Positions 2,164 to 31,358 of a stretch of DNA of 64,000 nucleotides are shown here, piece after piece; positions within the stretch are counted from its first letter, which is position 1, and the number at the start of each line of letters is the position of its first letter. Both the position numbers and the translations under genes were made by a program. The stretch covers positions 868,001 to 932,000 of the forward strand of contig NC_089434.1 in NCBI RefSeq assembly GCF_026210795.1, read 5' to 3'. Below the pieces are notes generated by a model, which saw only the letters and a program-made list of their open reading frames with translations, had not been told where the DNA came from and did no database searches. Source of the DNA: Rhizophagus irregularis (Eukaryota > Glomeromycota > Glomeromycetes > Glomerales > Glomeraceae).

Positions 2164-2936
2164 ATGTCATTATCAAAAAAAAGAAAAGAATTACATCGAG
2201 ATCAATCAAATACTCAAACACACTGGAAACCCTTAGAACTTATTGGCGTCCTAACATTTCTAAATGAAAATTTTGATTTATGGAGTGTAAATCATCTTGA
2301 TGCTAGTAATAAGGCAATTAAGGAGACTAATATCAATCGTGATGGTAAAGCACTTTATAGTAAAATTTATAATATGGTTAAAGCTATGGAAGACTATGTT
2401 GAAAAAAATAATAAGTCAACTTCTTACACCATCATGTGGGAAAATAGTAAAATTTACGATTTAGTAAAAGAAATGTATGATAAAACCAAAGAAACAAAAG
2501 AAACCAAAGAAGGTGAAAGAAAAAAAGAAAAAAGAAACCTCAAATCATATGAGTGACGGTGATGGTGACGTCACAATGAAAAATAAGTATGATGACTTTG
2601 AAATTTCTAATTCTTTTTAAAATGCGATTAATTATCAAAGCAATGTTAAAATTTTATTTTTTTAATTTTAGTAATACGACGACTACAAATCAAATTGATG
2701 TTCCTCAATTACCTTTTACCATCGAAACGATTGACAAGGTTTACAATGAACAAGTTCAAAATTATGACCGATTGATAGTAATAAATAGAGATATGATTGA
2801 AAAGAGAAATAAAGAAGTTCGTGAATTGTACGAACAAATTTCTCGCCGCCAAGCTGAACTAATCAAATTAATTCAAAAAGCTAATAATAAATTAGATGAA
2901 TTGGGGAAAATTACTGGAAAATCTTACATGATATAG
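2164..2936 (+). pseudogene. Array gene 1: helical-domain/coiled-coil family, frame broken near the end of exon 1
   Basis: First of ten paralogues. Exon 1 starts at ATG 2164 after an A-tract. It codes for a basic N-terminus (SKKRKELHR), then the family domain: W-K-P-L-E-L-I-G-V, NENFDLW, KETNINRDG, MVKAMEDY, MW, IYDLVKEMYDKTK. By homology exon 1 should end at 2586, the intron should be 2587-2671 (GTATGA...TTTTAG), and exon 2 should be 2672-2936 (PQLPFTIETIDKVYNEQ to the stop). The reading frame from the ATG instead meets TGA at 2554-2556, just after an A-rich run at about 2519-2535. The expected acidic motif (HMSDGDGDVTM) is intact but one frame over. This is either a recent frameshift in a homopolymer or an assembly error. 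Everything else looks as well conserved as in array gene 2, its closest relative. Confidence 0.75.
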
Positions 2937-4763
2937 ATTTATTTTTTTGTTTTCCTATATTTTATGTAAGCAAGATTTTAAAGTTTAACTTGTTTACGTG
3001 AATTTAAACAGAATTTAACTGAATAAATTTTTTAATTTTTAAGATGATTTTTATTTTTAAAAGTTTCTTTAATCGATCGCGTCTCATTTAAAAAAATTCC
3101 CACAGTATCGACGTTTTTGGTGACACGAATAACGTCATCTGCGTGGTGATCGAATGAATATCAGTTATAGAAATTATTTTCAGAGAATTTTGTTAAAGTT
3201 AAAATTAGATAAAATCACACATTTGCACTCTAATTATAAACTTGGCACGTGATATAGTCTAATATTAGATTCAGCTACATAAGTACCAATAAGAATCACG
3301 TAAAAAATCTGGTTTTGTCGTTACGAGGCTACACTATTTCGAAAATGGCGATAAACAAAATAAGCAATACTAAAAAGTTGAGTAACCGATATTATGTGAC
3401 GATTAACTTGTAAACTTCCAGAAATTATGATGATTGACACCCAACCTAGTAGAGTATCTGATGTTACAATATAAAGGTTCATTTTCTAATTTTCATAATT
3501 CTTTTTTTAATTTTTTATTTTTTTTTTCCTGGTAAACAAGGAGATAAACATATTTCATATTCCGAACATTAATACTAATTATATTTTTATGATACCATGT
3601 TTTGTGTATTTTAAGTATCTCTTTATCTATCAGTTTGTGTCACGAAAGATTTAGCTGGAAATCATCTGATTTTAATGTTCCACAAAATTATCAATTTCTT
3701 ATGATCAGCATTTTTGTGAAATTGATAATATTTTTCGTCATTGTTTTTTTTTAATAAGATGGTCCCCGCAGCAGGGATGCTGCGTCTTATTTTTTTTCAA
3801 AGAAGTTATGTAAGCTTAAAATTAAGCTGTATATATAAAATTATATTAATTGTTTTATGCAGAAGGGCTAATTAAAATGGATCAACGTATATGCTAAAAT
3901 CAGTCCAATCAGATGTAAATAATGTATCGCGCGCATACACTCAGATACAAATAAGGGATAGTAGATTAACAATACTAACAAACAAAATAAAATGTATGAT
4001 AAATTATTCAATGGATTCTCAATGGACCTTTCTCTCGATTCTTTTCTACAAGTACCTTGCTATTTATACATTTTTAGCCCTAATTGGTTAATGTTCAATA
4101 TACGATTATATTAAATAGCTATATTCGATATGTTTTTCGAAACATTGATCCGCAGTCACGTGACAAGCGGATTTTAGTCATCAATTTCGGCAATTGCATT
4201 ACCCGATAACATACCAGCAACACTATTTTGATTGATTGAACTTAAGATTACTTAATTGAATTATGAAATTTGTTTACAATACAAATATTGTGTATGATAC
4301 TATTATCTGTTTAAAAATTGAGTATACAGGCCTATCATTTTCTTAGGAAGGTTATTGGTAGGCAAAGAATTTTGTGTTTGATAACTTGAATAGGAGCCAT
4401 CTGCTAGAATTTTCGTGTTATTGAAAGTTTGTGTTCATATTTTAAGATGGTAACAACAATGAAAAAAATGTGCGCAAATAAAATACAGTTTAATGTAACA
4501 CAAAAAATAACAAACCACCAGCAATGAAATAAAAAAAAAATCAATATTTAGCTATTCTAATTATAGACCGTGGGACATGGGTATGAATGGCGGTAAATCC
4601 TTTAATAAAATATTTACGACTTGACAATACATTTTTTATTTACATTTCTTCGCCACCTAAAAAATTTTGTTGACATTTGATTATCAAGTTATAAAAAAAC
4701 AAATATTATTTACAAAAGATTATACCATATTACGATTGAAATAATAATAATGATATGCATAAA
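2937..4763. other. Spacer without recognisable genes
   Basis: AT-rich spacer. About 3075-3360 matches the sequence downstream of array gene 2 (10340-10525). Shared marks are CGCGTCT, TTCCCAC, ACGAATAACGTCATCT and a CTACAC.ATTT.GAAAATGGCG block, so the duplication that made genes 1 and 2 included several hundred bases of 3' flank. The rest holds nothing I can name. Confidence 0.6.
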
Positions 4764-4980
4764 GCACTGTGGGGTAGTCTTACCACACCACCCTCGGTTA
4801 CACAAATATTTGTTGGGGTGTGATGTCCGAGGTATGTGACAAATAGAGATCAGGCTAGTAAAAAAAAACTAAGTCCCTCAGATAAATATAAAAAATGCGA
4901 ACGCGGATATCACGTGATAATGTGACGCTAAATGTCACTGTGTAACCGAGGGTGGTGTGGTAAGATTTTCCGCACTGTGG
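4764..4980. mobile_element. 199-bp MITE with near-perfect terminal inverted repeats and 9-bp target duplication
   Basis: The element is 4773-4971. Its ends carry CTTACCACACCACCCTCGG followed by TTACACA, and the exact reverse complement sits at the other end (about 26 identical bases), with outer tips GG...CC. It is flanked by the direct repeat GCACTGTGG (4764-4772 and 4972-4980). There is no coding capacity. A 9-bp duplication with long inverted repeats suggests a Mutator-like origin (inference). The near-perfect arms suggest recent activity. Confidence 0.85.
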
Positions 4981-4982
4981 TA

Positions 4983-5355
4983 GGACCCAGAAATATGTAT
5001 ATATATATATATAGGTAGGCGTTGATTTGCGTTTGTTAGATCATCAGATTGCATATTTTTTTATCAAAATTTTTGTATATCCAATTCGTGCAACACTAAA
5101 AAAAACGGTAAAGGACAATCAATACCTATTGTTCCGATTGGAAGAAATTTTCTAAGGTTTGAAAAGTATATTATATTTTAACTATCTTAACTATTTGAAA
5201 AATATTATTGAAAAAATGAAGACAAATTTTATTTTTTCATATTAGTATTTGGTTTTATAAATAATAAAAGCCAAGATAAAATAAATCATGTGAACTTTAT
5301 GTCTAAAATTGCAGGATTTTCAAAATCAGGTGTCAATTATGCGTAAAAAATTTTT
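4983..5355. mobile_element. MITE family A, copy 1 (right end lost)
   Basis: Begins GGACCCAGAAATATG right after a TA dinucleotide and directly abuts the 9-bp duplication of the preceding MITE. Its interior matches the complete copy at 21905-22394: TTGATTTGCGT, ATCATCA.ATTGC, TTTCTAAGG, GAAGCCA.GATAAAATAA-like and GGTGTCAATTATGCGTA. The terminal inverted repeat seen at the right end of the complete copy is missing. Confidence 0.7.
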
Positions 5356-5839
5356 TGTGTGATACAGGCAAGGGCTTTTAGCTGCATGATGAAAATATTA
5401 TTTCGTTTTGAGGCTATAAATACCTGTATGTATTGTACTGTATATGATTCTTTAAAATAATATTTTACGAGACGAATAATTAATAATTTGTGATAGCACT
5501 ATTATTAAAATTAAAGATACCCTAAGAATTGTTTCTAAATTTTTTTTTTTTATTTTAAACACTCATAATAGTATTAAATTATTGTTGTTCAACGTAGTCC
5601 GTGGTCTTCTATCAGGAAAAACAAACTCCTGAATCATATGTTTGGAGAAATCTATGTAACAAACATTTAACATTTTACAGGTTTTATTTGGTTAGTATCG
5701 AGGAATTCTCCTGTGGCGATTACTCGATTACGCATCGGCCCAGAACGTTTGTTTATTTGTTTATGGTACAATTAATATTTGAATTTATAAGGAAATTTCC
5801 AAGTTTAAAAAGATAGTTTTTTGTGTAAATTATTTTAAA

Positions 5840-6235
5840 GAATTCCCTTTTAATTTTCTTTAAAAAAAAAAGAAAGAAAGAAAGAAAAAGAAAAGGAAAA
5901 AGAAAAAGAAAAAGAAACATATTGAAGATTAAATAAAAAAAAATGTTTGTTCATGAATTCTCTTTTTGATTATTTGAAATTTTCTTAAAAAAAAAGAAAA
6001 AAAAGAAAAAGAAAATATTGAAGAAAAAAAATGTTTGTTCATAATCTAACAATGAATTCCCTTTTTAATTATTTGAAATTTTCTTTAAAAAAAAAAAGAA
6101 AAAGAAAATATTGAAGATTAAATAAAAAAAAAATGTTTGTTCATAATCTAATAATATTTTAGAATTCCCTTTTAATTATTTGAAATTTACTTAAAAAAAA
6201 AAAAAAGAAAAAGGAAAAAGGAAAAAAAGAAAAAT
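5840..6235. repeat. Four imperfect tandem copies of a unit of about 105 bp
   Basis: The unit contains GAATTCCCTTTTAATTATTT, GAAATTTTCTT, an (A)nGAAAAAGAAAA run, ATTGAAGATTAAATAAAA and ATGTTTGTTCATAA. Copies begin near 5840, 5956, 6052 and 6161. They differ mainly in the length of the purine run. No coding potential. Confidence 0.75.
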
Positions 6236-6651
6236 AATTATAATTTATAATAATATTTTAGTAATCTTATTAAAAGTAGGCTTGTAAATAGCTTATTGTA
6301 CTACGACTTTGTAAGAAGATCAGTTAAGCCACATCGCTTTGCAGTATGCAGAATTGTTTTGTAACTATTCAATCTATTCATTGAGTTTTCCAAAAAGAAA
6401 CTTTTTTTTTTTTAAAAAAAAAATAAAAAAATCTTAAGAAAATTTTTTTTCCCCCCGGAATAAAAAATTAAATAATCAAAGCGTCGCTGAGCGCTTTGGT
6501 CAGCGAATCTCGTATATAAATAGATAACGGAATTTGGGATCGTGTGGAGCCAGGTTCAATAAAATTGAACGCGGGTGTCAAATTTCTAAAATTAATGATA
6601 ATTATAATTAGTTATAGTACGATACATATATCAATAAATAAAAAAAAATAT

Positions 6652-7314
6652 TCACACTTGTCGTGAATCAGTGGTAACTGGGACATTGACATCCTTGATA
6701 AATACATCCCACTCCCCATTTCTATTTAAACGAAGTAATAAACAATATAAAATGTATAAAAATAAGAATTTCTTATTTTTAAAAATAAATAAATAAATAA
6801 AAATGAAAAATTATTATACTCACAAATTTGTATGACTTAAAGCTTTTTTATAAAGAAAAATACTCCACAAATTACGAATATCTCGTAAAATAAGGGATTT
6901 ATCGTCGTCTAGTAATCTTGAAGTATTTATTTTGTTATAAACAAAGTATGTTATTCCAATAAACGGATAAACATCTTTAAGATATGATATATTAGAATTT
7001 TTTAATAAGTAAGTTGTCCCAAGAACAAATTTCATAAACGTTGTTAACGACGGAAAATTATTATGAAAAATTTGTTGATAGATTTCGATGTTATTGGTTA
7101 GCGTAAGTAATTTTGGATCAATATCCCGACTAGTTACTGCATCAACAAATTTCCGAAAGTTAGGATCTTTTGGATTTAAGACGCTAGTTGTATCGATGTT
7201 TTTATGTCGACACCAATTCAAAATAGTTGGGTCCATATATTTGTTGAATAAATCGGCCAATATCCCTGAGACATTATCGATATTATCGTGGTAAATTGTT
7301 GAACGAGAATACAT
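6652..7314 (-). CDS. Orphan two-exon protein, 186 aa, function unknown
   Basis: I do not recognise this protein. Exon 1 is 7314-6824. The intron is 6823-6722 (donor GTGAGT, acceptor AAATAG). Exon 2 is 6721-6652 and adds NGEWDVFIKDVNVPVTTDSR to the C-terminus. Both exons keep frame (491 + 70 nt = 187 codons including the stop), which supports the model. Without the intron the frame stops in the donor at 6820. The protein begins MYSRSTIYHDN and is rich in Asn, Leu and Ile. It contains a Cys (NWCRHKN) and probable helices (YQQIFHNNFPSLTTFMKFV). I see no signal peptide or clear membrane segment. It lies between array genes 1 and 2 in the opposite direction and shares nothing with them. Confidence 0.7.
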
Positions 7315-9197
7315 TGTATTTTAAAAATCGGTATAAAAGAAACGAAAAAGTGAAAGAACGAAACTATCATAAATTAATAGAAAGGTTTTTAATCCATTTC
7401 ATAAATATTAACATATTTCAAGAACAGAAGCGATTTTTATATTTTTATTAAACGTCACGTGCAAAAGAAAACCGCAAAGAAGTGGAGTATTAAATATATA
7501 CATGATTCATATAATAAATATATACAAATGTAATTTAAAATTTAAAATTTAAAAAAAAAGTTGACAGATTAACGTTTTAGGGAAAAACATTATCAATTTA
7601 CGTAATACATCCTTTTTTAGTTTTTTTTTCAGCATGATCATTTAAATTATTCTGCGCTAAGGCTGGTACGGCTGGTGCATCCTTTTTGGGTTTTCATTTT
7701 GGAAGTCATCCCTCCCCTTGAAAATCTTCTGTGCTTTTTTCTTTTTCATCCAATAATCTGCCTTTTTTTTTATTTTTTTAATGAAGTAATCAGTTCTACA
7801 GATACTGTTTAAAATTGATCGTCATCATCTATAACACTAATTGTAAAATATATTTTTAAATAACATGTATTTTATATATACTTTTCTATTAAATGTATTA
7901 TATAACATCAAATTAAATAATGTAAAATCTCTTTACATAACATGTCTTTTGTGTTATGACTACTAGATGGGAAAAAACTTATCGGAAATCCGGATAATTA
8001 AAATACTAGATTTTCCACACTGAATTTCTACTGTTTCACAACATTTTATCTGCATGTTCTAGAGATCCATATGACAATATTTTTCATTCTGAAAAAAAAA
8101 AAAGATCCTAACGAAAAAGAGAAGGAAAAGAAAATGAAAACAATAGAATCGGATTTTGAACTCAAAACTTATTGTGTTTTGTAACATTTGGTGATTTTGG
8201 GATTTGTTTACGTATTTTAAATCAGCTGTATATTTTTTTAGATTATAAAAGGTTTTCATTAGTATTAATTGAGGTAACGCGTTAATTATAAAATGAGACA
8301 CGTTGAAACTATTTTTAATACACAGTATATTGACGATTATATTATTAAAAATTTTATTTGTATTTTTTCCTTTGCTGAGATGCCGAGATTAACCAATTTC
8401 TTTAATCATTGATTTAGAAGCACAAATGACTCATATTTTTTATTGAAATATCGGTACAAAATTTTACCCCGTATTTAAAAAAGGTAATTAGTGACTATAA
8501 GAAGTAAGTATATTAAAGCATTTTTTTACTTTTTTTTTACAAACTCCGATAACCTGATCATATATATAACTTTAAACTTTTTTTAATCATTAGTATAACG
8601 TTGTTTTAACCTTTTCTCATTGTAAAAAAATTATTCTTGGCACTCTAATGCATATTTGTGTATCGCAAAGAAAATATATAAAAAATAATAAATAAGTACA
8701 AATTCATGAATTTGGATTAGCAAGGACCTTTTTTTTTTTTGTTTTGTTAATAGACAAAGAAATCTGATTGTTGCCTCTTATATCTTTTCATTACGCCTCA
8801 ACAACAAAAAGGAAAACAAAAAAAAAGTATATCACGGATTCTAAGGATCGAATTTGGTATTACAATGAATTAGTTAAATACGCATATAAAGTAATTCATT
8901 TTTAATGAAATTATAATGAGATGAGAAATGATCTACAGATAGATAACACGTTATGTGTAATTTTAAAAACTTGTGTTTTTTTAACTGCATGTCGACGATT
9001 ATATCACACTATTATTATTAATAAAAATTTATTTGTATTCTTTACTTTTAGCTTTTATTTGATACTTTGGTACAGAACATAATAGATTATACATTTTTAG
9101 ATATCGCCGAGATTAACCAAATTTCTTTATAATCAATAGATTTTGAGGTACGGAGTTCCATGACCTTTGGCACAACTTTTTTTTATCTTGCAGCAAA
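7315..9197. other. Spacer with decayed upstream modules of the array family
   Basis: No convincing gene. About 8040-8290 resembles 900-1090. About 8380-8580 is a further promoter-like module (CCGAGATTAACCAA, GATTTAGAAGCACAAATGAC, GACTATAAGAAGTAAGTA, CTCCGATAACC). About 8740-8850 repeats the GTTAATAGACAAAGAAATC block. These look like remnants of serial duplication of the upstream part of the gene unit. Confidence 0.55.
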
Positions 9198-9220
9198 GCT
9201 AACTATAAAAGGTAAGCAAC
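9198..9220 (+). promoter_or_regulatory. Shared upstream motif of array gene 2
   Basis: GCTAACTATAAAAGGTAAGC lies 238 nt before the ATG at 9436. It is the clearest copy of the motif, containing both a TATAAAA core and a GTAAGC that would serve as a splice donor. A second shared word, GTGCTTTACGAAAA, lies about 120 nt before the ATG, as in array gene 1. Confidence 0.5.
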
Positions 9221-9435
9221 CTTATATTTCATTTTTTCTAAATCTTGATCCTTAATGTCAAGTAGTCTCTGCGCCATCTTTAAATTTATTTATAAAAGAA
9301 AAAATTATTCGTGCTTTACGAAAACAAAAAAAAAACATTTTTAAAAAGAAAAATAAAAATTCAAAACATTCAAATAATTCAAATTTTGATATTATTTACT
9401 CCTTATATCAATTTTTTTTTTTAAAAAAAAAAAAG

Positions 9436-10188
9436 ATGTCAGTACCAAAAAAAAGAAAAGAGGTACATCGAGATCAACCAACTCAAATACAAATACGCTG
9501 GAAACCTTTAGAACTTCTTGGGGTCCTAACATTTCTTAATGATAATTTTGATTTATGGAGAGAAAATCATCAAAAAGCTTGCAGTGATGCGATTAAAGAG
9601 ACAAACATCAATCGTAATGAACAAGCAATTTATACTAAAATTAACAGTATGATTAAGGCTTTAGAAGAATATTTTGAGACGGGTAGAAAGTCGAATTCTT
9701 GCGCTGCCATGTGGGATGATGATAATAGTAAAATTTATGATTTGGTAAAAGAAATGTATGATAAAACCAAAGGAGGAGAAAAAAAGGAAAGTGAAAAGGA
9801 AACTCCAAATTGTACGAGTGACGGTGATGACGTTGTAATGAATAAGTATGTTGATCCTTTTGAAATCTCTAATTTTTTTTTTAAATTTATTAAAATTTTA
9901 TTATTCTATTTTAGTATAAATATGACGACTATCAATATAGATGTTCCTCAAATACCTTTTACCATTGACATGGTTGACAAGATCTACAACGAACAAATTC
10001 AAAATTATGACCGATTGGTAGAAATAAATAGAAATATAATTAAAAAGAAAAATAAGGAAGTTCGTGATTTGCATGAACAAATTACTCATCGTCAAACTGA
10101 ACTAATCGAGTTAATTCAAAAAGCTAATAATATATTAGATGAATTGAAGAAATTCACTGGAGAATCTTCAAAATCTCCTATGATGTGA
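9436..10188 (+). CDS. Array gene 2: putative nuclear helical-domain/coiled-coil protein, 227 aa
   Basis: Exon 1 is 9436-9845, the intron 9846-9914 (GTATGT...TTTTAG, 69 nt), exon 2 9915-10188. The intron is a multiple of three and has no stop, so the unspliced frame is also open (250 aa). Position and phase match the introns of all its paralogues, so the spliced form is preferred. The N-terminus VPKKRKEV resembles an SV40-type nuclear localisation signal. The domain at residues 18-115 has WKPLELLGVLTFLNDNFDLW, AIKETNINRNE, MIKALEEYFETGRK, MW and IYDLVKEMYDKTK. A basic/acidic linker (SDGDDVVM) precedes the exon junction. The tail has PQIPFTIDMVDKIYNEQ, a long charged helix with EVRDLHEQITHRQTELIELI and KANN. 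Single long-block tail, like genes 1, 9 and 10. Confidence 0.85.
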   Translation: MSVPKKRKEVHRDQPTQIQIRWKPLELLGVLTFLNDNFDLWRENHQKACSDAIKETNINRNEQAIYTKINSMIKALEEYFETGRKSNSCAAMWDDDNSKIYDLVKEMYDKTKGGEKKESEKETPNCTSDGDDVVMNKYVDPFEISNFFFKFIKILLFYFSINMTTINIDVPQIPFTIDMVDKIYNEQIQNYDRLVEINRNIIKKKNKEVRDLHEQITHRQTELIELIQKANNILDELKKFTGESSKSPMM

Positions 10189-12235: not shown

Positions 12236-12288
12236 AATTCATTGTACTAATTCTGTATATCATGGATAGGGGAAAATTCTCTCCGATA

Positions 12289-12314
12289 GCTTAACTATGA
12301 AAGGAAACCATATT
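12289..12314 (+). promoter_or_regulatory. Shared upstream motif of array gene 3
   Basis: GCTTAACTATGAAAGGAAAC followed by CATATT lies 260 nt before the ATG at 12549. CTCCGATA sits directly before it, as CTCCGTGAA does before the copies of genes 5 and 8. Confidence 0.5.
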
Positions 12315-12548: not shown

Positions 12549-13287
12549 ATGTCAAAACCAGTTCAACCAATACGATGGAAACCTTTAGAACTTATCGGCG
12601 TTCTGACTTATCTAAATAATAATTTTGAGCTGTGGTGTGCGAATCATCGTAATGCTTGCAATATGGCGATTAGGGAAACCAATATCAATCGAGACGAAAA
12701 AGCTACTTATGCTAAAATTTACAATTTGATTAGGGCAATGGAAGAATTTCATCAATCAGGTAGGAAGCCATCGTCTTATAATGTCATGTGGGAAGATAAA
12801 AATATCTACGATTTAGTAGAAAAGATGTACAACAAATCAAAAATGAAACAGGAAAGTGAAAAAGGTAAAGAAATTACAGTTGACGATGACATTGAGATGA
12901 GCATAAGGTATGTTAGCTTTAAATTATCAATTATATCAATTATATAACATTTAATAATTATTATATTATATTTTCATTTTTAGCGATGATCAAACAAATA
13001 TTGATATCATGTCGCAATCAATTGCGCCTTTATCAATTGAGGCAGTGAACAAACTTTGTGATGAGAAAATTAATCAAGTTTATGAAAATCAAGCCTTGGT
13101 TATCAAAAAGATTGAGGAAGCCAATGATACATTTGAAAAGTCAAATGTTAAAATTTTTTATTCGGCTGAGAGAGCTAAAAGTATATGCGACGAGAAATTG
13201 AGCAAAATCGGTCAACTTCGATCCGAACTTATCGAAATGATCAATATTGCTAATGCTAAATATGAAGAATTAAAAAACTTTCAATGA
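12549..13287 (+). CDS. Array gene 3: helical-domain/coiled-coil protein with doubled tail, 220 aa
   Basis: Exon 1 is 12549-12907, the intron 12908-12983 (GTATGT...TTTTAG, 76 nt, phase 2), exon 2 12984-13287; 663 nt in frame. The start follows an A-tract. There is no PKKRK N-terminus. The domain begins at residue 8: RWKPLELIGVLTYLNNNFEL, then NACNMAIRETNINRDE, NLIRAMEEF, SGRKPS, MWE and IYDLVEKMYNKSK. The acidic DDDIEMS motif ends exon 1. The tail has two consecutive blocks: PLSIEAVNKLCDEKINQVYE with IEEAND, then FYSAERAKSICDEKLSKIGQ with LRSELIEMINIANAKYEEL. Relatives with the doubled tail are genes 4 and 5. Confidence 0.85.
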
Positions 13288-14034: not shown

Positions 14035-14945
14035 TTATTTAATAAATGCTTAAAAAAGATTTCAAAATAGCAGAATAGCTGATTTAATTCAGATGAAGCC
14101 ATGTGAAGAGCAAAGTTTTAAAGAATTTGTCTTTCATAATTTTTTGTTTATTTTTTCAGCCCTAACAAAATGAAATAATTTCCATTTAACGATTAGACGT
14201 TGATCGATAACGACACAAATTTCTTACAACAAAATAATTGGTTTCTCATGCTTAAAAAAGATTTCAAAATAGCAGAACAGCTGATTTAATTCAGATTAAG
14301 CCATGTGAATGAGAGTGAGAGAATTCCATAACTCTTTGTTTATTTTTTCAGCCCTAACAAATGAAATAATTTCCATTTAACGATTAGACAAAACAAGTCG
14401 ATTTATAACGATACGGCAAAATGATTGGTTCTCTATCATCAATAAATGATTAATAATAGTGAGAGACTTCCATAACTCTTTGTTTATTTTTCAGCCCTAA
14501 CAAAAATGAAATAATTTCCATTTAACGATTAGACGTTGATTCGATAACGACACGAATTTTTTTTATAACAAAATAATTGGTTCTCTATTACAATAAAAAA
14601 GATTTCAAAATAGCAGAACAGCTGATTTAATTCAGATCAAGCCATGTGAATAAGTGTGAGAGACTTCCATAACTCTTTGTTTATTTTTTTCAGCCTAACA
14701 AAATGAAATAATTTCCATTTAACGATTAAACGAAACAAGAGAAATAACGACACAAATTTTTTATGCAAAATGTTATTAAATAAATGCTTTAAAAAAAAAG
14801 ATTTCAAAATAGCAGAATAAGTTTAGATGAAGTCATATGAATATGGTAAAGAATTTGTCTTCCATGATTCTTTGTTTATTTATTTTAATTTTTTTTTTTC
14901 AGCCTAATAGAATAAAATAAAATTCATTTAATGACTAAACGAAAC
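14035..14945. repeat. Tandem array of about five units of roughly 190-200 bp
   Basis: Each unit has AAAAAGATTTCAAAATAGCA, an AGCTGATTTAATTCAGAT-AAGCCATGTGAA word, CTTTGTTTATTTTTTCAGCC, CCTAACAAAATGAAATAATT and TCCATTTAACGATTAGACG. The CAGCC(C)TAA word occurs at about 14157, 14350, 14494, 14690 and 14899. The third unit lacks the AAGATTTC part and the last is the most diverged. It ends about 480 bp before array gene 4. No coding potential. Confidence 0.85.
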
Positions 14946-15390
14946 TTCTTTGTTACTTGTTTTTTTTTACGAAAAATAAATTTTGCAGATCATATAATAA
15001 AATTATTATATTCTCTAATAACAATTATGCTAACCAAATCTCTTTGTTTTCATAGAATTTCATCAAACATATGAAACAAAATAAAAATTTACCATGGGAA
15101 TTTTTTCACCGAAAACTATTCTATTTTTGTAGTTATTATAAAAAAAAAATCCAAACTTTATTTCCCTTGTAAACTTTATTTTCTTTTTTGTACAACTTGA
15201 TTGAGGCAGATCATAACTTAATTGTCGTATGATGTAATTCCTGTTTTGCTATCCCCCCGAGATAAATAACATTTTGCGTTTAGCAAAAAAAAAAAAAATT
15301 ATTTCTAATTTATTCTTTTAACTTTGAAATTCTTAACTTTTTTTTTTTGAAAAAAAAAAAATTAAAGAACTTAAAAAAAAAACTCAAAAT

Positions 15391-15391
15391 T

Positions 15392-15424: not shown

Positions 15425-15425
<1 letters not shown>

Positions 15426-15426
15426 T

Positions 15427-16158
15427 ATGCCACCAATTAGAAAATCAAAAGAAATATTTCGAGAACAAGTGCGTTGGAGTTCTAATGAACTTATTGGAAT
15501 TTTAGATTTTCTTGATAATAATTTTGAAATGTGGAGAACAAATCGAGTCAACGCTTCCACGAAAGCAATCGAAGCAACTAATAATAAACGGGATGCAAGA
15601 TCAGTTTATAATAAAATTCATGTATTAATTAAAAGTATGGAAGTATATCATAAAACTGGCGAAAAATCAAATACTGGTACCGTTATATGGAGTAATAAAA
15701 GAATTCAGGAATTGGTAGAAAATATTTATATTAAAACTAAAGAAAAAAGTGAAGAAAATCAAGAAATCGAAGTTGATGATAATAATAGGTATGATGATCT
15801 TCAGATATTATTAATTGTAATATATTATTTATAAATTATTTATTTCCTTAGCGATGCATCCACTATTCGAACTGAAATGGACGATGAACCAGCACCTTAT
15901 TCAACTGAGGCGATTAATAAACTTTATAGTGAGAAATTAATTCAACTTTCTCAAACTCGATCCACGGTTATGAAAACTATTGAAGAAACTAATAATACAT
16001 TTGAAGTATCAAAAGTTAATTTGTTACTTTACTCAAAAGAAGCGGCTATTGATATTTTTGACAAAAAAATTGAAGAAATTACTAAACTTCGAGATGAACT
16101 TTCCTATATTATTAATGATATTAACAATAAATATGAACAAATGAAAAACTTTCGGTGA
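15427..16158 (+). CDS. Array gene 4: helical-domain/coiled-coil protein with doubled tail, 222 aa
   Basis: Exon 1 is 15427-15788, the intron 15789-15851 (GTATGA...CCTTAG, 63 nt, phase 2), exon 2 15852-16158; 669 nt in frame. The N-terminus is MPPIRKSKEIFREQ, then the domain: VRWSSNELIGILDFLDNNFE, NASTKAIEATNNKRDARSVY, KIHVLIKSMEVYHKTGEKS, IW and IQELVENIYIKTK. The acidic end is EVDDNN. The tail has two blocks: PYSTEAINKLYSEKLIQLSQ with IEETNN, then LYSKEAAIDIFDKKIEEITK with LRDELSYIINDINNKYEQMK. The RDARSVYNKIH word is shared with gene 5 and differs from genes 1-3. Confidence 0.85.
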
Positions 16159-17197: not shown

Positions 17198-18035
17198 ATG
17201 CCTAAAGATACACCAATACGTTGGGAAAATGCAGAACTAATTAAAATCTTAAGTTACATTAATAACAATATTGATATGTGGTGTACAAACCATCTTAATG
17301 CTTGTCTCAAAGCAATAGAAGCTACCAACAATAATAAACGTGATGCAAAAGCAGTTTATAATAAAATTCATAGTTTGATTAAAGCTATGGACGAATTTCT
17401 TAAAACAGGGAAAAAGGCTCAAACTTGCAGCATTATTTGGGAGGAAACAAAAATTCATGATTTAGTAAGAAAAATTTATGTTAAAACCAAAGATAGAAAG
17501 AAGAAAGATGACAATAAAGAAAAAAAGAAAAAAGACGAAAATCTAGAACGAAGGTCAAAAGAAGGAAGTCAAGAATCTAAAACTCGTGATGATGATGGTG
17601 ATGTTGAAATGTCAAATAGGTATGTTGATGAATAACCTTAAATTAAGTGTCGTTAATTGAATATGTAATTACGATTATTTATTAACATTCATGATTTCTT
17701 TTTCTTTTCATTTAAGCTCTGATCAACTAACGCCCACTAATCGATCGACTGTAAATGGACCTGTCTCTCAGTTACCTTTTTCTCCTGATTTGATTGAAAA
17801 ACTTTATAATGAAAAATGTCAACAAATTGCTGAAACTCGGACTAGACTTACAAAAATAGCTGAAAGTGCCAAGAGTGAATTTGATATGGTTAACTTTCAG
17901 ATTCCTTTTCAACTTGATTCAGTTGAGACTAACTGTAACGATAAAGTACATCAAATTACTCTTCTTCGAACTGAACTTATCGAAATGATTGAGAAAGCTA
18001 ATAATAAATATAATGAATTAAAAGCATTTCAATAA
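17198..18035 (+). CDS. Array gene 5: helical-domain/coiled-coil protein with long basic linker and doubled tail, 246 aa
   Basis: Exon 1 is 17198-17619, the intron 17620-17716 (GTATGT...TTTAAG, 97 nt, phase 2), exon 2 17717-18035; 741 nt in frame. The domain starts almost at the N-terminus: PIRWENAELIKILSYINNNI, NACLKAIEATNNNKRDAKAV, KIHSLIKAMDEFLKTGKKA, IWEE and IHDLVRKIYVKTK. The linker is unusually long and Lys/Glu-rich (DRKKKDDNKEKKKKDENLER), followed by DDDGDVEMSN at the junction. The tail is the clearest internal duplication in the family: QLPFSPDLIEKLYNEKCQQI and QIPFQLDSVETNCNDKVHQI, the second followed by LRTELIEMIEKANNKYNELK. The basic linker could act as a nuclear localisation signal (inference). 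Confidence 0.87.
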
Positions 18036-22394: not shown

Positions 22395-22715
22395 TATCGG
22401 TATGTAGAAAAAAAAATCGGTATCGGCTTATCGTGAATAATACAATGTAACTGGTTTACAGCTTAACGTCGGTATAGCTATATCGCGAAATTTATAATAA
22501 AATCGGTATATAGAAATTAATTATATACGTGGGGAAAAAAAATCGGTATGAGTCAAAATCGGTTTATCCCGAATTTAAATTGCGAATTATAAATTTTATT
22601 TTATATATAAAAACAGTAATTTCAGTAATTTTTTTTACCGATGAGAATATATCCATAAAAAAAAAAAATTTCTAATGCTAATCTCAAGAATATCTACATC
22701 ACTCTATCCAATCAA

Positions 22716-23417
22716 TCACTGATATTGTTTTAGTTCTTCACATTTATTATTGATCTTATTATTGGCGTCCATAAGTGTTTCAATCATTTCGGATTGGATT
22801 TGGGAAATTTTTTCAATATCTTCTTTTCGTTTTGTTTCAATTCCTTGTATTCTTTCGTTACATAGAGTTTTAACCTCTTCAATTACTATAGGCATCTGAA
22901 AACTACCCATTTGATTCATTTGATTTGTAGATGTCTCACCTACTGTTGTTACTTGATTAGTTCTAAAATAAAATAAAATAAAATAAAATTAACAAAATAA
23001 ATTGTTTATTTTTTTTTTGTAAAAAAAAAAGTCACCGTACTCTATATTAACTTTAAAGTCACCACCACTTTTACGGTTTATTTTCTTTTCTTGACTTTCT
23101 TTTATTTGAGTTCTTTCTGTTCTTTCTCTAGTTTTGATACAAATTTTTCTTACTAATTTGCTTATTTTTTTGCTTTCTCTAAGAATATTACAAGTAGGTG
23201 ATCTATCCGCTTCAATAGAATTTTCCATATCTTTTATTAAAGTATGAACTTTACTATATATTGACGAAGCATCTCGATCGATATTTGTATTTTTAGACGC
23301 TGCAGTGCAAGCCTCCATATGGTTTTCAAACCATTTATTAAAATTATTATTAAGGAATTTAAGAACCTTAACTAGTTCCGTATAATCCCAGCGTTTCATT
23401 CTGTCAGCCCGAGGCAT
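22716..23417 (-). CDS. Array gene 6 (inverted): helical-domain/coiled-coil protein, 207 aa
   Basis: This is the only array member on the minus strand. The start is ATG 23415-23417 (MPRADRMKRWDYTELVKVL); the longer upstream frame is homopolymer. Exon 1 is 23417-23041, the intron 23040-22963 (GTACGG...TTTTAG, 78 nt, phase 2), exon 2 22962-22716; 624 nt in frame. Domain marks are KFLNNNFNKW, ACTAASKNTNIDRDASSIYS, KVHTLIKDMENS and ISKLVRKICIKTRE. It is diverged: MW/IW before the last helix is replaced by ILRES. The tail has SFQMPIVIEEVKTLCNERI, QGIETKRKEDIEKISQIQSE and LMDANNKINNKCEELKQYQ. It lies just beyond the decayed Tigger element, which may relate to its inversion. Confidence 0.82.
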
Positions 23418-23469
23418 ATTTTTTTTTTTTTTTTCACGAAAAAATACGGTTACGAAAAAAATATGGGGA

Positions 23470-23500
<31 letters not shown>

Positions 23501-25136: not shown

Positions 25137-25964
25137 ATGACTGGAAAAAGCTGGAAGACCACAGAGATAATTAAAGTTCTCGAGTTTATTAATGAAAATT
25201 TTTCTTTATGGTGCAAACATCGGATAAATGCTTGTACTAAAGTGGCCAAAGTTCATAATCTTGATAGAGATGCTAAATCAATTTATAGTATGGTTAATAA
25301 GTTGCTTCAAGCTATTAAAACTCCTAAAAGACGTAAAGCTTGCAAAACTTTAAAGAGGAGAAAGATTAGTAGTTTAGTAAAAGAAATTAATAAAAAAACC
25401 GAAGTTTTGGACGAAGGATTAGACGACAAATGTAAAGGAAAAAAAAAAATTACGAGTGACAATAAACAAAAAATTACAACTAACAGTAACACTAATATGA
25501 CTACAAAGTATGGTAACTTTATAAGTTAAATATTTTAATTATCAAAATTATACGTTATCCATTATTTTTTTTAATTTTTTTTTTATTTTCTTTTTATTTT
25601 CTTTTTTAGCGCTAATCAAAAATCCGCAAGTCAAGCAGCAACAACATCCGCAAGTCAAATAGCAACAACATTCGCAAATCAAGCGGCAACAACATCCGCA
25701 AGTCAAGTAGCAGCAACATTCGTAAGTCAGGCAGCAACAACATCCGCAAGTCAAGCAGCGACAACATCCGCAAGTCAAGTACCAAATACATCTGCAAGTC
25801 AAGTACCAACAACATCCACAAGTCAAATAACGTCTGTAATTGAGGGTGTTTATAAAGAAAAGGTTAAACAAATTGATACTAGGCGTGATGAAGATATCCA
25901 GAATATTACTCAATATACAACTGATATTGTCAATAGTCTCCTGTTAAAGGGAATTCTTAAGTGA
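25137..25964 (+). CDS. Array gene 7: divergent member whose tail is a minisatellite-coded 8-residue repeat, 241 aa
   Basis: Exon 1 is 25137-25507, the intron 25508-25609 (GTATGG...TTTTAG, 102 nt, phase 2), exon 2 25610-25964; 726 nt in frame. Exon 2 has no Met, so a simple ORF search misses it. The domain is divergent: SWKTTEIIKVLEFINENFSL, NACTKVAKVHNLDRDAKSIY, MVNKLLQAIKTPKRRKACK and ISSLVKEINKKTE. The TGKK/IW part is replaced by basic KRRK words. Exon 2 opens with about nine copies of an 8-residue repeat (SASQAATT; variants SASQIATT, FANQAATT, SASQVPNT), coded by a 24-bp minisatellite. It ends in a shortened coil (IEGVYKEKVKQIDTRRDED). The repeat is Ser/Thr/Ala/Gln-rich and probably unstructured. 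Confidence 0.82.
25617..25830. repeat. 24-bp coding minisatellite in exon 2 of array gene 7
   Basis: About nine imperfect copies of TCCGCAAGTCAAGCAGCAAC followed by AACA. All length differences keep 24 bp, so the reading frame is preserved. Copies differ at few positions (GCA/GTA/ATA in codon 5, TCC/TTC in codon 1). The mirror-strand frames also stay open and give Cys- and Leu-rich artefact ORFs. Confidence 0.9.
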
Positions 25965-26550
25965 TCGGTTGATATTTGAATTATGAAAAATTATGTTTTA
26001 TACGTGATTTTGGCATCTTTTCGTTACTTTTTACGATATTAGAAATATGATTTGATGTATATATAGTATGAAAATAAAATTATTTTATGTTTTTATCGCC
26101 ATTTAAAGTGAAATTATATTGTCAAATAAAAAATATGATTTGTTGTCATAATATGTGATATAATTGTAGGATGAAAATTTCAATACAAAAAATAAAAAAT
26201 AATTTATGTGATGTCGATGGGCGGAATGATAATGTTTAAAATGTTGAATAGATTATCTTAAAACAGAATATAATCATGATGTAAAACATATAGTTTTTTT
26301 CTAATTGGTACTTAAATGATATATATTATTTATATTATTATATATTGTTCTTTATTTTCTGCTTATTAATGTTCTTTTCACAAAATGTATATAATATTCT
26401 AATATATATAACGCTAAATTTGATTCTATAAAAAATTTCTGTGGCACAAGAATACATCATTGAATACCATATTTGATTGTATTTAAATGGTACAAAGAAA
26501 CATAAACAATAACAATAATTTATACCTTATTAAAATTGATAGGAGTTTTT
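25965..26550. other. Spacer between array genes 7 and 8
   Basis: AT-rich sequence without a recognisable gene or repeat. Its 3' end leads into the shared upstream motif of gene 8. Confidence 0.5.
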
Positions 26551-26585
26551 CTCCGTGAACTTTAACTAAGGAAGGTAATCAATTA
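26551..26585 (+). promoter_or_regulatory. Shared upstream motif of array gene 8
   Basis: CTCCGTGAACTTTAACTAAG followed by GAAGGTAATC, about 260 nt before ATG 26818. It is the same compound word as upstream of gene 5. Confidence 0.5.
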
Positions 26586-26817
26586 ACATATAACTTCTAT
26601 TTCTTTTCGTGCTACTTAATGGTACAGGTCAGCAGGTAGATAAATAAACCATCCATTCTACTTTTTTAGGAACTTTTTCAGATGATTCTTTGTTGATATT
26701 TTCTAGATTCATTTCATTCCATTTCTTTTCTTTTCTTTTTCATTTCTTACTGTTTTACTTTATACTTTATTCTTTATTTTTTATTTTTATTTTTTATTTT
26801 TTTTTATCTTAAAAAAG

Positions 26818-27444
26818 ATGCCTCGAGATAAACCGAAACGTTGGGAAACTCAAGATACAATTAAAGTCCTTAATTATCTCAATGATAATTTTGAACTTTG
26901 GTATAAAAGTCCTTTCGTTGCATGTGTTAAAGCAATAGAAGCAACTAATATAATTCGAGACGGAAAACAAGTTTATAATAAAGTTCATGGTTTGGTTCAG
27001 GATATGGAAAAATTTCTCGATACCGGCAAAAAAGCAAATAATTCTGCCGTTATTTGGGAAAATGAAGAAATTCATAGTTTGGTAAGAGCAATGTGTGTGA
27101 AATCCAGAGAAAAAAAGAGAAATGAAAATCAAGAAACTTCAAGTCGTATGAGTGACGGTGATGTTGAAATGAAGTACGTTGTTGATTCATTAAACATTTC
27201 ATTATAATTATTAAATTATTAACAAATATTTCTTTTTAGCATCGATCAAATAACGGTATCATCTGAGGAATCTACTAATCAAAATGACACAAATAGGAAC
27301 ATTCCTAAATTATCTTTTACTGTTGAAGAGGTTAATAATGTTTATAATGAAAAAATTAAGAAATTTGAAAAACTTCGAGCCGAACTTATCGAGTCTATTG
27401 AGATTGCCAATAAAAAATTTGATGATTTTAAAAAATTTCAATGA
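26818..27444 (+). CDS. Array gene 8: helical-domain protein with compact tail, 186 aa
   Basis: Exon 1 is 26818-27173, the intron 27174-27239 (GTACGT...TTTTAG, 66 nt, phase 2), exon 2 27240-27444; 561 nt in frame. Exon 2 lacks a Met and is not visible as an ORF. The domain has KRWETQDTIKVLNYLNDNFE, SPFVACVKAIEATNIIRDGK, KVHGLVQDMEKFLDTGKKA, IWENEE and IHSLVRAMCVKSRE. SDGDVEMK precedes the junction. The tail is a Ser/Thr/Asn-rich stretch, then one compact block: KLSFTVEEVNNVYNEKIKKF, LRAELIESIEIANKKFDDF and KKFQ. It is the shortest member and may show the minimal tail unit from which the longer ones were built. Confidence 0.85.
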
Positions 27445-28410
27445 TTTAATTGGAGCATAGTAAATGGTAAATCAAAAATTTTCTTCTTTTTCTTGAATTG
27501 GTTTTACTGTACCATTTGTACGTGATTTTTATTAATATCATATCTTTTTTTTTTCTTTCGATAAAGATTTCAAATATATATGCGACGTATCACGCATATC
27601 ATTTGTAAGTTTAATTATTATTTAGTTAAGGTTGGGCAAATTAAGGTGCCCAAAGAATTAAAAGAATTTTTAAGATATTTGTACCAATATTCTTTCCTGT
27701 ATAGTTTAATTGTTCGTTTGGATATTGACATTTGAAAATTCTTCGATTCTTTAGATTCTTAGCTTAAGAACGATACTCATTTAATTGTATCCCTAAAAAC
27801 ATTACATCCTACGTTTTGATTAATATTATTCTGTACAAAATTTTATATTAAATCAAGATTTTAATTAATAAAAAAATATGTGTATATTCAATTATTAAAT
27901 TTTAAATACAACCGATATAAAATTTCGCGTCAAAAAAAAATATTTCTCAGTTGCTGCGCTTGACGACGGATTATGGATAATTATAGGATAATTTTTCGGC
28001 GGTGGCGTTATCAATGCATGTCACGATTTTCATATTGGTTCTTTTTAAATAATAAATATGGGCATATCGATTCATTTGATTGTATTAATGAAATTATCAT
28101 AAATTTGATACAGTACATTTATTTCTATTTTATTATTGTTCTTTTCTATTCAATTCTATTCTGCCCGTATATTCTGCCGATTATTTTTTTTCACACACTA
28201 AATTTTTTTTGGTAACATAGATGATTGAGATGACTCACTTTTACTTGTATAATCTAAACAAATTGACAGTTGAAAACAAAATAATATCCTTATATGGGTA
28301 GAAGCCATCCATTTATTCAAATGAGTTTTAAACACAAGAACACCAATAAATATCAACAATTATTAATATAAACTTTTATCTGCATATCTTACAGAAAATA
28401 TGGTAATGAT
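27445..28410. other. Spacer between array genes 8 and 9
   Basis: No gene seen. The 80-aa ORF at 27973-28215 is Phe/Ile/Tyr-rich, as expected from AT-rich noise. I see no repeat. Confidence 0.5.
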
Positions 28411-28415
28411 GACGC

Positions 28416-28440
28416 TGATTAACAGGAAATCATATTTCCA
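28416..28440 (+). promoter_or_regulatory. Shared upstream motif of array gene 9 (weak copy)
   Basis: GATTAACAGGAAATCATATT lies 220 nt before ATG 28637. It resembles the gene-3 copy (TTAACTATGAAAGGAAACCATATT) with a short internal deletion. Confidence 0.35.
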
Positions 28441-28636
28441 CTTTTATATTAGATACTTTATTTTTAAAAAAAATTCAAAGAACGTCGTTAACTTCCTTTT
28501 ATAGCTTAATTCGTTAGATAACGATTTTATATCCGCTCATCTCATTTCACAGAAAAAAAAAACTTTTTTTTTTTTGCGTTCTTTTACATACATACAAAGA
28601 TACGATCGATTTATTTTTTTACTATTAAAAAAAAAG

Positions 28637-29332
28637 ATGCCTAGACCTGAGAAACCAAGACGATGGGAATCTTCAGAAATAGTGGTAGTTTTAAATTATC
28701 TTTATGATAATTTTGACACGTGGTATGATAGTCCTTATGTTGCTTGCGCTGAAGCAATAATGGCTACTAATGTTAAACGAGGAGGTAGTTCAGTTTATGG
28801 TAAAGTTCATAATATGATTAGAATTATGGATGATTACCTTCGGACGGGTAAAAAAAATTCGAATACTTGCGACATCTTATGGCAGAATAAAAAAGTTCGT
28901 GATTTGATAAAAGAAATGTGTTATAAAAATACAGAAAGAAAGAGAAAAGATGAAACTACGAAAAATCGTAAGAAGAGGTATGACATCATTATATCACATT
29001 TTATACTAACAGTATTACAAATTTATATTAACCATCAATTCTCTAGTATTAGTAAAGCGATAACAACTGTAACAACTGAAGCATCTACGACTACAAGTCA
29101 GATAGATGTTCCTCAGATGCCTTTTTCAATTGAAACGATTGATGAGATTTATAATGAACAAATTAAAAAAGTTGAAAATTTGGTATTAAAATCAAAAGAG
29201 ACTATTGAGACAAGAAATCAAGAAATTCGTGATTTATATGAACAAATTTCTCATCGTCGTTCTGAACTTATCGAATTAATTGAGATGGCTAATAATAAAT
29301 TGAATGATTTGAAGGATTTTTCTATAGTATAA
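28637..29332 (+). CDS. Array gene 9: helical-domain/coiled-coil protein with long tail, 208 aa
   Basis: The start at 28637 (MPRPEKPRRWESSEIVVVL) follows an A-tract and aligns with its paralogues. The upstream in-frame ATG at 28574 would add 21 residues of T-tract/A-tract translation and is rejected. Exon 1 is 28637-28977, the intron 28978-29046 (GTATGA...CTCTAG, 69 nt, phase 2, in frame and open), exon 2 29047-29332; 627 nt. The domain has NYLYDNFDTWYDSPYVACAE, ATNVKRGGSSVYGKVHNMIR, YLRTGKK, LW and VRDLIKEMCYKNTE. The acidic motif is missing at the exon end (KNRKKR instead). The tail has PQMPFSIETIDEIYNEQIKK, EIRDLYEQISHRRSELIELI and MANNKLNDLKDF. Confidence 0.85.
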   Translation: MPRPEKPRRWESSEIVVVLNYLYDNFDTWYDSPYVACAEAIMATNVKRGGSSVYGKVHNMIRIMDDYLRTGKKNSNTCDILWQNKKVRDLIKEMCYKNTERKRKDETTKNRKKRYDIIISHFILTVLQIYINHQFSSISKAITTVTTEASTTTSQIDVPQMPFSIETIDEIYNEQIKKVENLVLKSKETIETRNQEIRDLYEQISHRRSELIELIEMANNKLNDLKDFSIV

Positions 29333-29388
29333 AAATTGGTATAAAAAATTGGTATAAAATTGGTATAAAATTGGTATAAAATTGGTAA
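29333..29388. repeat. Five tandem copies of ATTGGTATAAA just after the stop of array gene 9
   Basis: Units of 11-13 bp (AATTGGTATAAA with A-run length differences) begin one base after the stop codon. The 3'UTR of this gene thus opens with a length-variable repeat. Confidence 0.85.
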
Positions 29389-29926
29389 TAATCTCTTATC
29401 TTTAATTAGATTGATGTTTATTTTTGTAATATGATTTATTGATTAATTTACGTAATTTTTTTTTTTAAATAGAATAATAGGATTCTTTTTTTTCTTTCTT
29501 TTACATAATAAGAAATATGGGCTTAGCTTTTTGTATTATGTATATATTCTTTTTTACTTAAGCAAACATATGATTATTTATTATATAAGCGAAATTAAAT
29601 TGAGCACGATCGAAGAATTTTTATCATCATCAAATTCTTTTTTTTTATAGTTTCTTTTATAGTTTTATTTGAGGAATTTGGTATTTAAAATTGTAGTTTA
29701 TTTTAAGTTGTTAGTTAAATGAAAATTTTAAATAAAAAAGGGTTATTAAAATTTAACGATATTGATTTTTTGTATCATTAAATGTAACGTAAAAGTTTGT
29801 CGATCGACGATCATAAATTTGCCCATCTGCCAATCAAAATAAGAGGCGTTACTACCAGATTATGACGTATCAACTGGGTGAAATTAACAAAGTAACGTGA
29901 TTTTTAATGGTATTTTTTACAAAAAT

Positions 29927-30075
29927 GAGCATTGCTAAATCTCACCCGCAGGTGATCCTCACCAGCATTAGCAAATATTAATGGGCAGAGTTTCATAACA
30001 TTTTTAATTCCGCCCAAAATTCTACCCTAATTCTAGTAAGGTGACAATCGCCAGCGGTGATATTTAGCAATACTC
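29927..30075. mobile_element. Small MITE-like inverted repeat element, 149 bp
   Basis: The ends are imperfect inverted repeats of about 37 bp: GAGCATTGCTAAATCTCACC on the left, and GAGTATTGCTAAATATCACC on the reverse strand of the right end. The repeat continues through GC.GG.GAT..TCACC. No coding capacity. The target duplication is not clear. Confidence 0.65.
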
Positions 30076-30589
30076 TTAAAAATAGATGTATGTTTTAAAT
30101 TCTAAACCCATATTGTATTAGTGTGATAATTAGACTAGCATAATTGATTTACCGAGTAAATTATTTCTTTATGCGCGTTTTCTTTTTTTTCTTTAATTTT
30201 AATTTCAGTAATTTCGGCCTAATCATGTAAGTTGTAACGTTATAAAAAAATCGATGACGAGTCTTAGTCGTTTTATCATTTCGAAATAAAATAAAAAAAA
30301 TGTTTTTTTTTTTCAGTTAAATTATTTTCTCACGATTTTTCTTTTTTTGTTTAATGAGTGAATTTTTTTTTCACGTACTAAATTTCTTTTGTATAATTCA
30401 TTAAAAATTATTATGATATAATTTGTTTTATTTGTTTATTCTTTTGATCTTCTTACTTTTTTACCGTTTCTACTTTTTTTTTTTATTTATATATAAATAT
30501 AAAAATCTTATTAAACCAAATTTCTTAGCTAAAAAAAAAAAAAAAAAAAAAAGTAAATCTCTTAAATTCTTTTATACTTAAAAAAAAAG

Positions 30590-31358
30590 ATGTCTCAATT
30601 GGGTGGGGGAAAACGATGGAATGCTTCAGAGTTGATCGAAATTTTAATTTACCTTAATAATAATTTTAGAGATTGGTATGAAAATTCTTATGGAACTTGT
30701 AATAAAGCGGTAGAAGCCACAAATAATTCTCGAGGTGCTAATTCAGTATATTGTAAAGTTCATAAGATGATTAGAGCGATGGATGATTATCTTACAACTG
30801 GTAAAAAACAAACTCGTGATATTATTTGGAAGGATCAATTGATTTACGATTTGATAAAAAGAATTCATAGAAAAACTAAAGAAAGAAAGGCAAGAGAAGA
30901 AAATGAAGAAGCTATAAAGAGAAGAAATTTAAGTTATCGCATTATTGAAGATGATACTGAAATGCAATTGGAAAATATAAAGTAAGGATAGTAAGGATGA
31001 TGTTTAAAATTACTAATTTTTTTTTCATTATTTTTATCAATTTATTTTTATGGTTTTTTTTTTTAGTAGTCAAATGACAGCTGGGACAGAATCCACTAGT
31101 CAATTGAAAATTGAAGTTCCACAACTACCTTTTTCAGTTGATACTATCGATAGCCTTCGTAGTGAACAAATTCTAAAAACCGAACGTCATGCTCGAGAAT
31201 TAGTAGCATTATCAAAAGAATCAATTGATGCTAGACATAAAGAAGTTCGTGAATTAACTGGAAAAATTTCACAACATCAAATTGAACTTGAGAAAATGAT
31301 TAAAGAAGCCAATGATAAGTTAGAAAAGTTGAAAGATGTTAATAGCTTTAATGACTGA
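30590..31358 (+). CDS. Array gene 10: helical-domain/coiled-coil protein with long tail, 227 aa
   Basis: Last member. Exon 1 is 30590-30981, the intron 30982-31066 (GTAAGG...TTTTAG, 85 nt, phase 2), exon 2 31067-31358; 684 nt in frame. The domain has KRWNASELIEILIYLNNNFR, YGTCNKAVEATNNSRGANSV, KVHKMIRAMDDYLTTGKKQ, IIWKDQ and IYDLIKRIHRKTKE. The linker is RKAREENEEAIKRR, then EDDTEMQLE at the junction. The tail has PQLPFSVDTIDSLRSEQIL, EVRELTGKISQHQIELEKMI and EANDKLEKLKD. It groups with genes 1, 2 and 9 by tail type, and with 9 by the R-G-A/G-x-S-V-Y word in the domain. Confidence 0.87.

Follow-up and report, generated by a model that had tools for sequence, protein, structure and literature searches.

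What do the ten paralogous two-exon genes at positions 2164-31358 of a 64,000-nucleotide stretch of the Rhizophagus irregularis genome (the window; C6:868001-932000) encode, and where did they come from? The initial annotation had proposed ten such copies, all of which we modelled, and had called their N-terminal domain uncharacterised, a label that no longer fits: the domain is of the Myb/SANT-like type, though divergent, and is homologous to the Myb protein that PIF/Harbinger transposons carry in this genome. This homology, the lack of flanking terminal inverted repeats (TIRs) and of matches to two Harbinger transposases, the tandem layout, and open frames with a domain under purifying selection together make it likely that a domesticated Harbinger Myb gene expanded in tandem into this family of DNA-binding proteins, putative dimeric regulators.

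To place the domain, we turned to the genome (146.7 Mb in 32 contigs, named C6, C16, C23, C28, etc.), in which counts from six-frame searches are lower bounds. A Pfam scan of 14 family copies found no family at cut-off; sub-cut-off matches over part of the domain were HTH_MCM7 (three of ten members, best E 1.9e-4), ARM_FBXO47 (4.6e-4), and RFX5_N (1.8e-3). A genome search with PF13837 yielded at least 150 matches (150 of 246 candidates scored), none of these 150 being at the array. Many of the PF13837 matches had equal scores and lay in frames of 122-140 residues scattered over the chromosomes, and they look transposon-borne. One match, at C23:2.9308 Mb, belongs to the following element.

C23:2930142-2933072, PIF/Harbinger element (L080) with two convergent genes and 54-nt inverted repeats.

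The TIRs of this element are 98% complementary, its transposase matches DDE_Tnp_4 (PF13359) at 5e-28, and its Myb protein, in which a charged, helical-looking tail follows the domain, matches PF13837 at 8e-9; no clean target-site duplication was apparent. Elsewhere in the genome, seven more matches to this Myb protein had 89-100% identity. A genome search with the C23 Myb returned 26 matches at E 0.01 or better, including C16:2.2958 Mb (1.6e-8) and C27:0.3965 Mb (1.4e-4). The same two loci were matched by the fifth gene of the window, g5 (E 9.7e-4 and 0.18, respectively), and by a hidden Markov model (HMM) of the array (9.6e-9 and 4.3e-6). At the C16 locus lies a Harbinger in decay (transposase remnant 2e-48, Myb 1.5e-15), and no transposase was found within the 5 kb examined at the C27 locus.

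We then compared the family with six Harbinger-type Myb sequences, of which only those from C23 and C16 were shown beside a transposase. Alignment of the two profiles by hhalign gave a probability of 95.2 and an E-value of 2.6e-8 with 17 family copies (94.8 and 5e-8 with 11 copies), and the best of 200 column-shuffled controls scored 21.8 versus 48.7 for the real alignment. With an HMM of the Harbinger Myb sequences, 14 of the 17 family domains scored above all 3400 shuffles, all array copies at a modest level of at most 28.5 bits; the domains below this bar were those of the copies at 837 and 858 kb (u837 and u858) and of the relative of u837 at C6:3.59 Mb. In the tree, a branch with support of 100 parted the Harbinger sequences from the family. 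The 837-kb pair and a copy on C28 stood nearest to the Harbinger branch, with the other array copies beyond, and many inner branches were poorly supported. A remnant at 861 kb was left out of all domain analyses.

Nothing indicated that the array is still mobile. Over C6:818-932 kb, there was no match to two Harbinger transposase queries or to the 54-nt TIR, so that of the Harbinger components the array showed the Myb part alone. In the 1-kb flanks of all 17 units tested, the best inverted match never exceeded the best of ten random places; the control element scored 94 bits. A non-autonomous transposon was rejected on the missing flanking inverted repeats and the lack of a match to the two transposase queries.

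We searched all six frames of the genome with g5 and g10, and C6:818-932 kb by HMM and tblastn as well, and found that the array reaches beyond the window: 18 units occupy C6:837253-899358, about 62 kb, and comprise the ten window genes, five upstream domain-bearing copies, two domain-less units, and one broken unit. The ten copies in 29 kb counted in the initial annotation are confirmed, and the array continues upstream of the window. The units and two example parts of g5 are as follows, with window positions for the genes g1 to g10.

2164-2936, plus strand, g1; exon 1 2164-2586, intron 2587-2671, exon 2 2672-2936; frameshift in exon 1.
9436-10188, plus strand, g2; exon 1 9436-9845, exon 2 9915-10188; phase-2 intron.
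12549-13287, plus strand, g3; exon 1 12549-12907, exon 2 12984-13287; phase-2 intron.
15427-16158, plus strand, g4; exon 1 15427-15788, exon 2 15852-16158; phase-2 intron.
17198-18035, plus strand, g5; exon 1 17198-17619, exon 2 17717-18035; phase-2 intron; first structure model.
22716-23417, minus strand, g6; exon 1 23417-23041, exon 2 22962-22716; phase-2 intron.
25137-25964, plus strand, g7; exon 1 25137-25507, exon 2 25610-25964; phase-2 intron; 24-bp repeats in exon 2.
26818-27444, plus strand, g8; exon 1 26818-27173, exon 2 27240-27444; phase-2 intron.
28637-29332, plus strand, g9; exon 1 28637-28977, exon 2 29053-29332; phase-2 intron.
30590-31358, plus strand, g10; exon 1 30590-30981, exon 2 31067-31358; phase-2 intron; second structure model.
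17216-17524, plus strand, example of the Myb/SANT-like domain, g5 residues about 7-109, as predicted in the AlphaFold2 model.
17717-18032, plus strand, example of the exon-2 tail, from g5, with a heptad pattern above shuffles.
C6:837.3, 856.0, 858.0, 863.5, and 866.9 kb, upstream domain-bearing copies, from the genome, HMM, and tblastn searches.
C6, near 861.4 kb, broken unit, from the same searches.
C6:860065-860466, domain-less unit of 109 residues.
C6:862545-862953, domain-less unit of 109 residues.

The sole minus-strand copy among the modelled array units is g6. As the initial annotation had claimed, a phase-2 intron at a shared site is predicted to splice in frame in nine of the ten window genes; it is of the GT-AG type, 63-102 nt long, and the nine predicted spliced frames are open and encode 186-246 residues. 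The probability of at least nine of ten in frame, at one-third each, is 3.6e-4, a figure that ignores the choice of splice sites. Across the whole array, the spliced frame is open in all but one of the 15 domain-bearing copies. The frameshift of g1 lies in the A-rich tail of exon 1, downstream of the domain, and marks either a broken gene or a sequencing error; an alternative splice pair giving a 219-residue open frame was set aside, as it truncates the domain end and runs on across the intron shared by the other copies. In g2 and g9, the introns (9846-9914 and 28978-29052) are free of stops and have lengths that are multiples of three, so that unspliced mRNA would still encode a longer protein. 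Two features attributed to all ten copies proved less general: the acidic motif at the exon junction was, by eye, clear in seven copies (in g1 in another frame), weak in g6, and absent from g7 and g9, and A-runs 5' of the ATG were present in about eight. The DNA pattern of the junction motif occurs at 28 places, eight of them exact, including both domain-less units and the C28 copy. Exon 2 of g7 contains eight or nine 24-bp repeats (25610-25840) coding an ASQAATTS-like stretch, which the other copies lack.

The domain is under purifying selection. Identity among the ten window genes ranges from 25 to 62% (median 39%), and omega (dN/dS) was 0.389 over 17 copies, with a log likelihood (lnL) of -4664.5 versus -4722.9 at omega 1; the wide divergence and the coding constraint proposed by the initial annotation are thus both upheld. 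Full-length proteins gave an omega of 0.410 (15 copies; lnL -7963.8 versus -8049.0 at omega 1), with g1 (frameshift) and C28 (uncertain gene model) omitted. Exon 2 gave 0.575 (14 copies; lnL -2742.5 versus -2755.1 at omega 1), a test that likewise omitted g1 and C28, as well as g7, u837, and the C6:3.59 Mb copy, which were too different. The higher omega of exon 2 indicated that the tail is less constrained than the domain.

To obtain structural information on the domain, we performed structure prediction with AlphaFold2, each model being run on ten window rows. The mean predicted local distance difference test (pLDDT) values were 84.2 for g5 and 88.9 for g10, and the models showed five main helices and one short helix, with a long helix at residues 50-70 and a long last helix. 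The main helices of g5 are predicted at residues 11-23, 25-30, 32-43, 50-70 (the putative recognition helix), and 84-109. Ten columns are invariant among the ten window genes (M1, W9, L18, N24, W28, N44, R48, Y54, L89, and K96 in g5 numbering), tryptophan is retained at three positions (in 15, 14, and 13 of 17 copies), and N44, R48, Y54, and K56 are conserved at the start of helix 3. Judging from Myb proteins at large, these helix-3 residues and the three mostly kept tryptophans would be compatible with DNA contact. Most likely, the Myb-like unit serves for DNA binding and exon 2 for pairing, roles that we regard as putative.

In a zebrafish Harbinger, a 9-bp motif close to the ends of the element is the binding site of the Myb protein, and contact between Myb and transposase is required for nuclear entry of both; both parts have been domesticated repeatedly (PMC9710019, PMC7282668). 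The probable course of events for the array would begin with the Myb protein of one Harbinger insertion being freed from its element. It would have gained or kept the phase-2 intron and the helical tail, and the gene would then have been amplified in place to form the tandem array. Helix 3 may contact DNA in the major groove, along with a basic N-terminal arm, and pairing of the exon-2 helices may yield homo- and heterodimers, so that the paralogues could act in combination with one another, as sequence-specific regulators or as chromatin factors. Candidate targets would be host promoters or remnants of Harbinger ends.

Several observations weigh against an origin from Harbinger and a role as DNA-binding dimers. 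None of the 14 scanned copies reached the PF13837 cut-off, and PF13837 was listed for only one, at E 0.28. The C23 Myb alone aligned with the family over most of the domain but weakly (hhalign E 2e-4, probability 47). In the converse test, with the family HMM, four of the six Harbinger proteins scored above the best shuffle and the intact C23 protein scored below it, one of the six not being among the matches listed. Against a mixed set of eight PF13837 sequences, including that C23 Harbinger sequence (L073), hhalign gave a probability of only 3.5 (E 0.012); the homology was seen with the Harbinger subgroup only. The direction from element to host is one that we infer, given an unrooted tree with a long separating branch. 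Only 7 of 17 tails showed a heptad pattern above that of shuffled sequences (no more than 5 of 200 reaching it; g1 and C28 omitted), a signal that makes a coiled coil likely in some of them. In Foldseek searches of the PDB, the DNA-binding domain of Sap1 took ranks 1-2 for the g5 model (probability 0.91, TM score 0.58-0.62) and ranks 1-4 for the g10 model (probability 0.87 to 0.30, TM score 0.49-0.57), but the best E-values for the two models, 0.66 and 0.48, were not significant. With every E-value at 0.48 or above, the fold match to Sap1 is by itself a lead, and a PDB sequence search found no similarity to Sap1.

An explanation that shares the Harbinger origin but differs in function is that the family acts against transposons, competing with the Harbinger Myb at element ends or recruiting silencing there, and diversifies as the elements change. 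The common ancestry with the Myb of resident Harbingers fits this proposal, as do eight genome matches to the Harbinger Myb query with 89-100% identity, of which two contain a stop and one is partial, and a tandem, fast-diverging array with decayed and domain-less units. We nevertheless consider it unlikely, as selection on the domain is on balance purifying, no binding site is known, and array copies reach no more than 28.5 bits with the Harbinger HMM.

The structural match raises the further explanation that these are replication or chromatin factors like Sap1, using a Myb-type domain and a coiled-coil dimer for fork barriers or genome stability. Sap1 has a Myb-type domain with a long fourth helix and a C-terminal coiled coil required for DNA binding (PMC6053445). 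It ranked first for both models and is the nearest solved fold, and the predicted array proteins would share its Myb-type helices, long fourth helix, and coiled coil in the same order. However, Foldseek E-values exceeded 0.4, no sequence match was found, and Sap1 is a single essential protein (PMC6053445), whereas the array holds 15 diverged domain copies. The Sap1 motif TAACG was not enriched upstream relative to dinucleotide shuffles, either by regions containing it (11 of 17, P 0.40) or by number of sites (20, P 0.17). A Sap1-like role is therefore very unlikely. Other searches gave no further leads: the PDB sequence search with the domain or the tail as query found no convincing relative, and a viral fold library offered nothing useful. 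The hexamer ACGAAA, chosen as the best of 1449, occurred in 14 of 17 upstream regions (shuffle mean 7.6; 0 of 1000 shuffles reached 14). No convincing shared upstream motif pointed to self-regulation; of the self-regulating DNA-binding family suggested initially, the DNA-binding character is supported and the self-regulation is not.

A third explanation, that the array is a decaying leftover without function, draws on the g1 frameshift, the broken 861-kb unit, and the domain-less pair. In both domain-less units, exon 1 is 77 nt long and runs from the start straight to the acidic junction, so that the domain is missing; the phase-2 intron and the tail are intact. Pairwise dN/dS of these two units was 0.93, and omega 1 was kept in two three-sequence tests (lnL -1299.6 versus -1300.0 and -1245.5 versus -1245.6). 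It was rejected for a five-sequence set that added three domain-bearing copies (lnL -2385.7 versus -2397.6), and in a neutral simulation of 5000 runs both frames stayed open in 53 (in 34 of 5000 when one-fifth more changes were allowed). Such units could be pairing partners unable to bind DNA, that is, natural inhibitors. For the family as a whole, omega values of 0.39 (domain) and 0.41 (whole protein), with omega 1 rejected by 58 and 85 log units, and the 14 open spliced frames among 15 domain-bearing copies make neutral decay highly improbable. The mating or identity locus of the initial annotation, which a multi-copy cluster of widely diverged DNA-binding proteins might suggest, is extremely improbable, as a search for the homeodomain type of mating-type locus, the only type looked at, found two Homeobox_KN matches at E 0.001 or better, both on C12 and none on C6, and the published HD2 lies on chromosome 11 of an earlier assembly (PMC11414155).

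Outside the array, two clear relatives were found (C28:1826017 and C6:3594468). The copy at C6:3.594 Mb shares 90% identity with that at 837 kb, and dN/dS between the two is 0.32. On C28, domain and tail form one open frame (C28:1826008-1826577) at the end of a long gene, whose putative model combines a protein kinase with eight Sel1 repeats and also has a MACPF-like match below threshold. Small repeated exon-like stretches, each ending in the acidic junction motif DSDIEMD, precede the C28 domain, and a second C28 gene, at C28:1840776, terminates in the same motif; this pattern suggests exon shuffling. A retrocopy on C28 was considered, as the intron between domain and tail is absent, but was rejected, because other apparent introns and a long gene stand before the copy. 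Weaker family fragments occur on C16, C27, C19, and at C6:1.097 Mb. Prokaryote genomes and viral contigs, searched with one family member, held no relatives.

Other features of the window lie between or beyond the genes.

14051-14946, a short repeat family between g3 and g4, with five copies at a spacing of 145-209 bp.
41139-42648, minus strand, a protein kinase gene in two frames (Pfam kinase domain 41142-41975), resembling a kinase gene at C6:831 kb, upstream of the array.
43231-47754, an open frame of 1507 residues that encodes reverse transcriptase and RNase H domains, a retrotransposon like the long interspersed nuclear elements (LINEs).

If the domestication of a Harbinger Myb protein is the correct explanation, this cluster of a much-studied mycorrhizal fungus would turn from an unknown domain into a testable DNA-binding family, for which the resident Harbinger elements would be obvious candidate binding sites. 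In a paper on the transposons of R. irregularis, PIF-Harbinger is one of the profiles listed, and domestication is touched on in general terms (PMC11075540). Neither a fungal case, nor a tandem array of this size, nor a transposase-free array with domain-less and kinase-fused members appeared among the top-ranked open-licence PubMed Central (PMC) papers. A broader proposal, conceivable though rather unlikely, is that a transposon DNA-binding subunit was domesticated without its transposase into a diversifying array of combinatorial dimers, with domain-less inhibitors and one kinase-Sel1 fusion, which would make it the fungal analogue of those expanded arrays whose DNA-binding proteins keep watch on transposons.

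Compared with the Myb protein of L080, the array proteins have a homologous domain and, like it, a charged, helical-looking tail. The L080 protein differs in residing within an element with TIRs and a transposase, in an apparent intron before the domain where that of the array comes after it, and in exceeding the cut-off of PF13837 (Myb_DNA-bind_4), as 0 of 14 family copies do. A domesticated Harbinger Myb protein is in itself a known kind, with cases described in both animals and plants. Myb-like proteins of this origin are NAIF1 (vertebrates), ALP2 and HDP2 (Arabidopsis), and the products of the DPM7/APM genes (insects) (PMC9710019, PMC7282668). ALP2 has lost the three tryptophans needed for DNA binding (PMC9710019, PMC7282668), whereas the array mostly keeps three tryptophan columns, which may or may not correspond to those three. 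As in the known cases, a Harbinger-type Myb/SANT-like domain is followed by a C-terminal part, and the array is free of its element and under constraint. Those cases are single or few genes, often accompanied by a domesticated transposase, with one tandem duplication in mosquitoes (PMC9710019, PMC7282668), whereas the array consists of 18 tandem units with no match to the two Harbinger transposases alongside.

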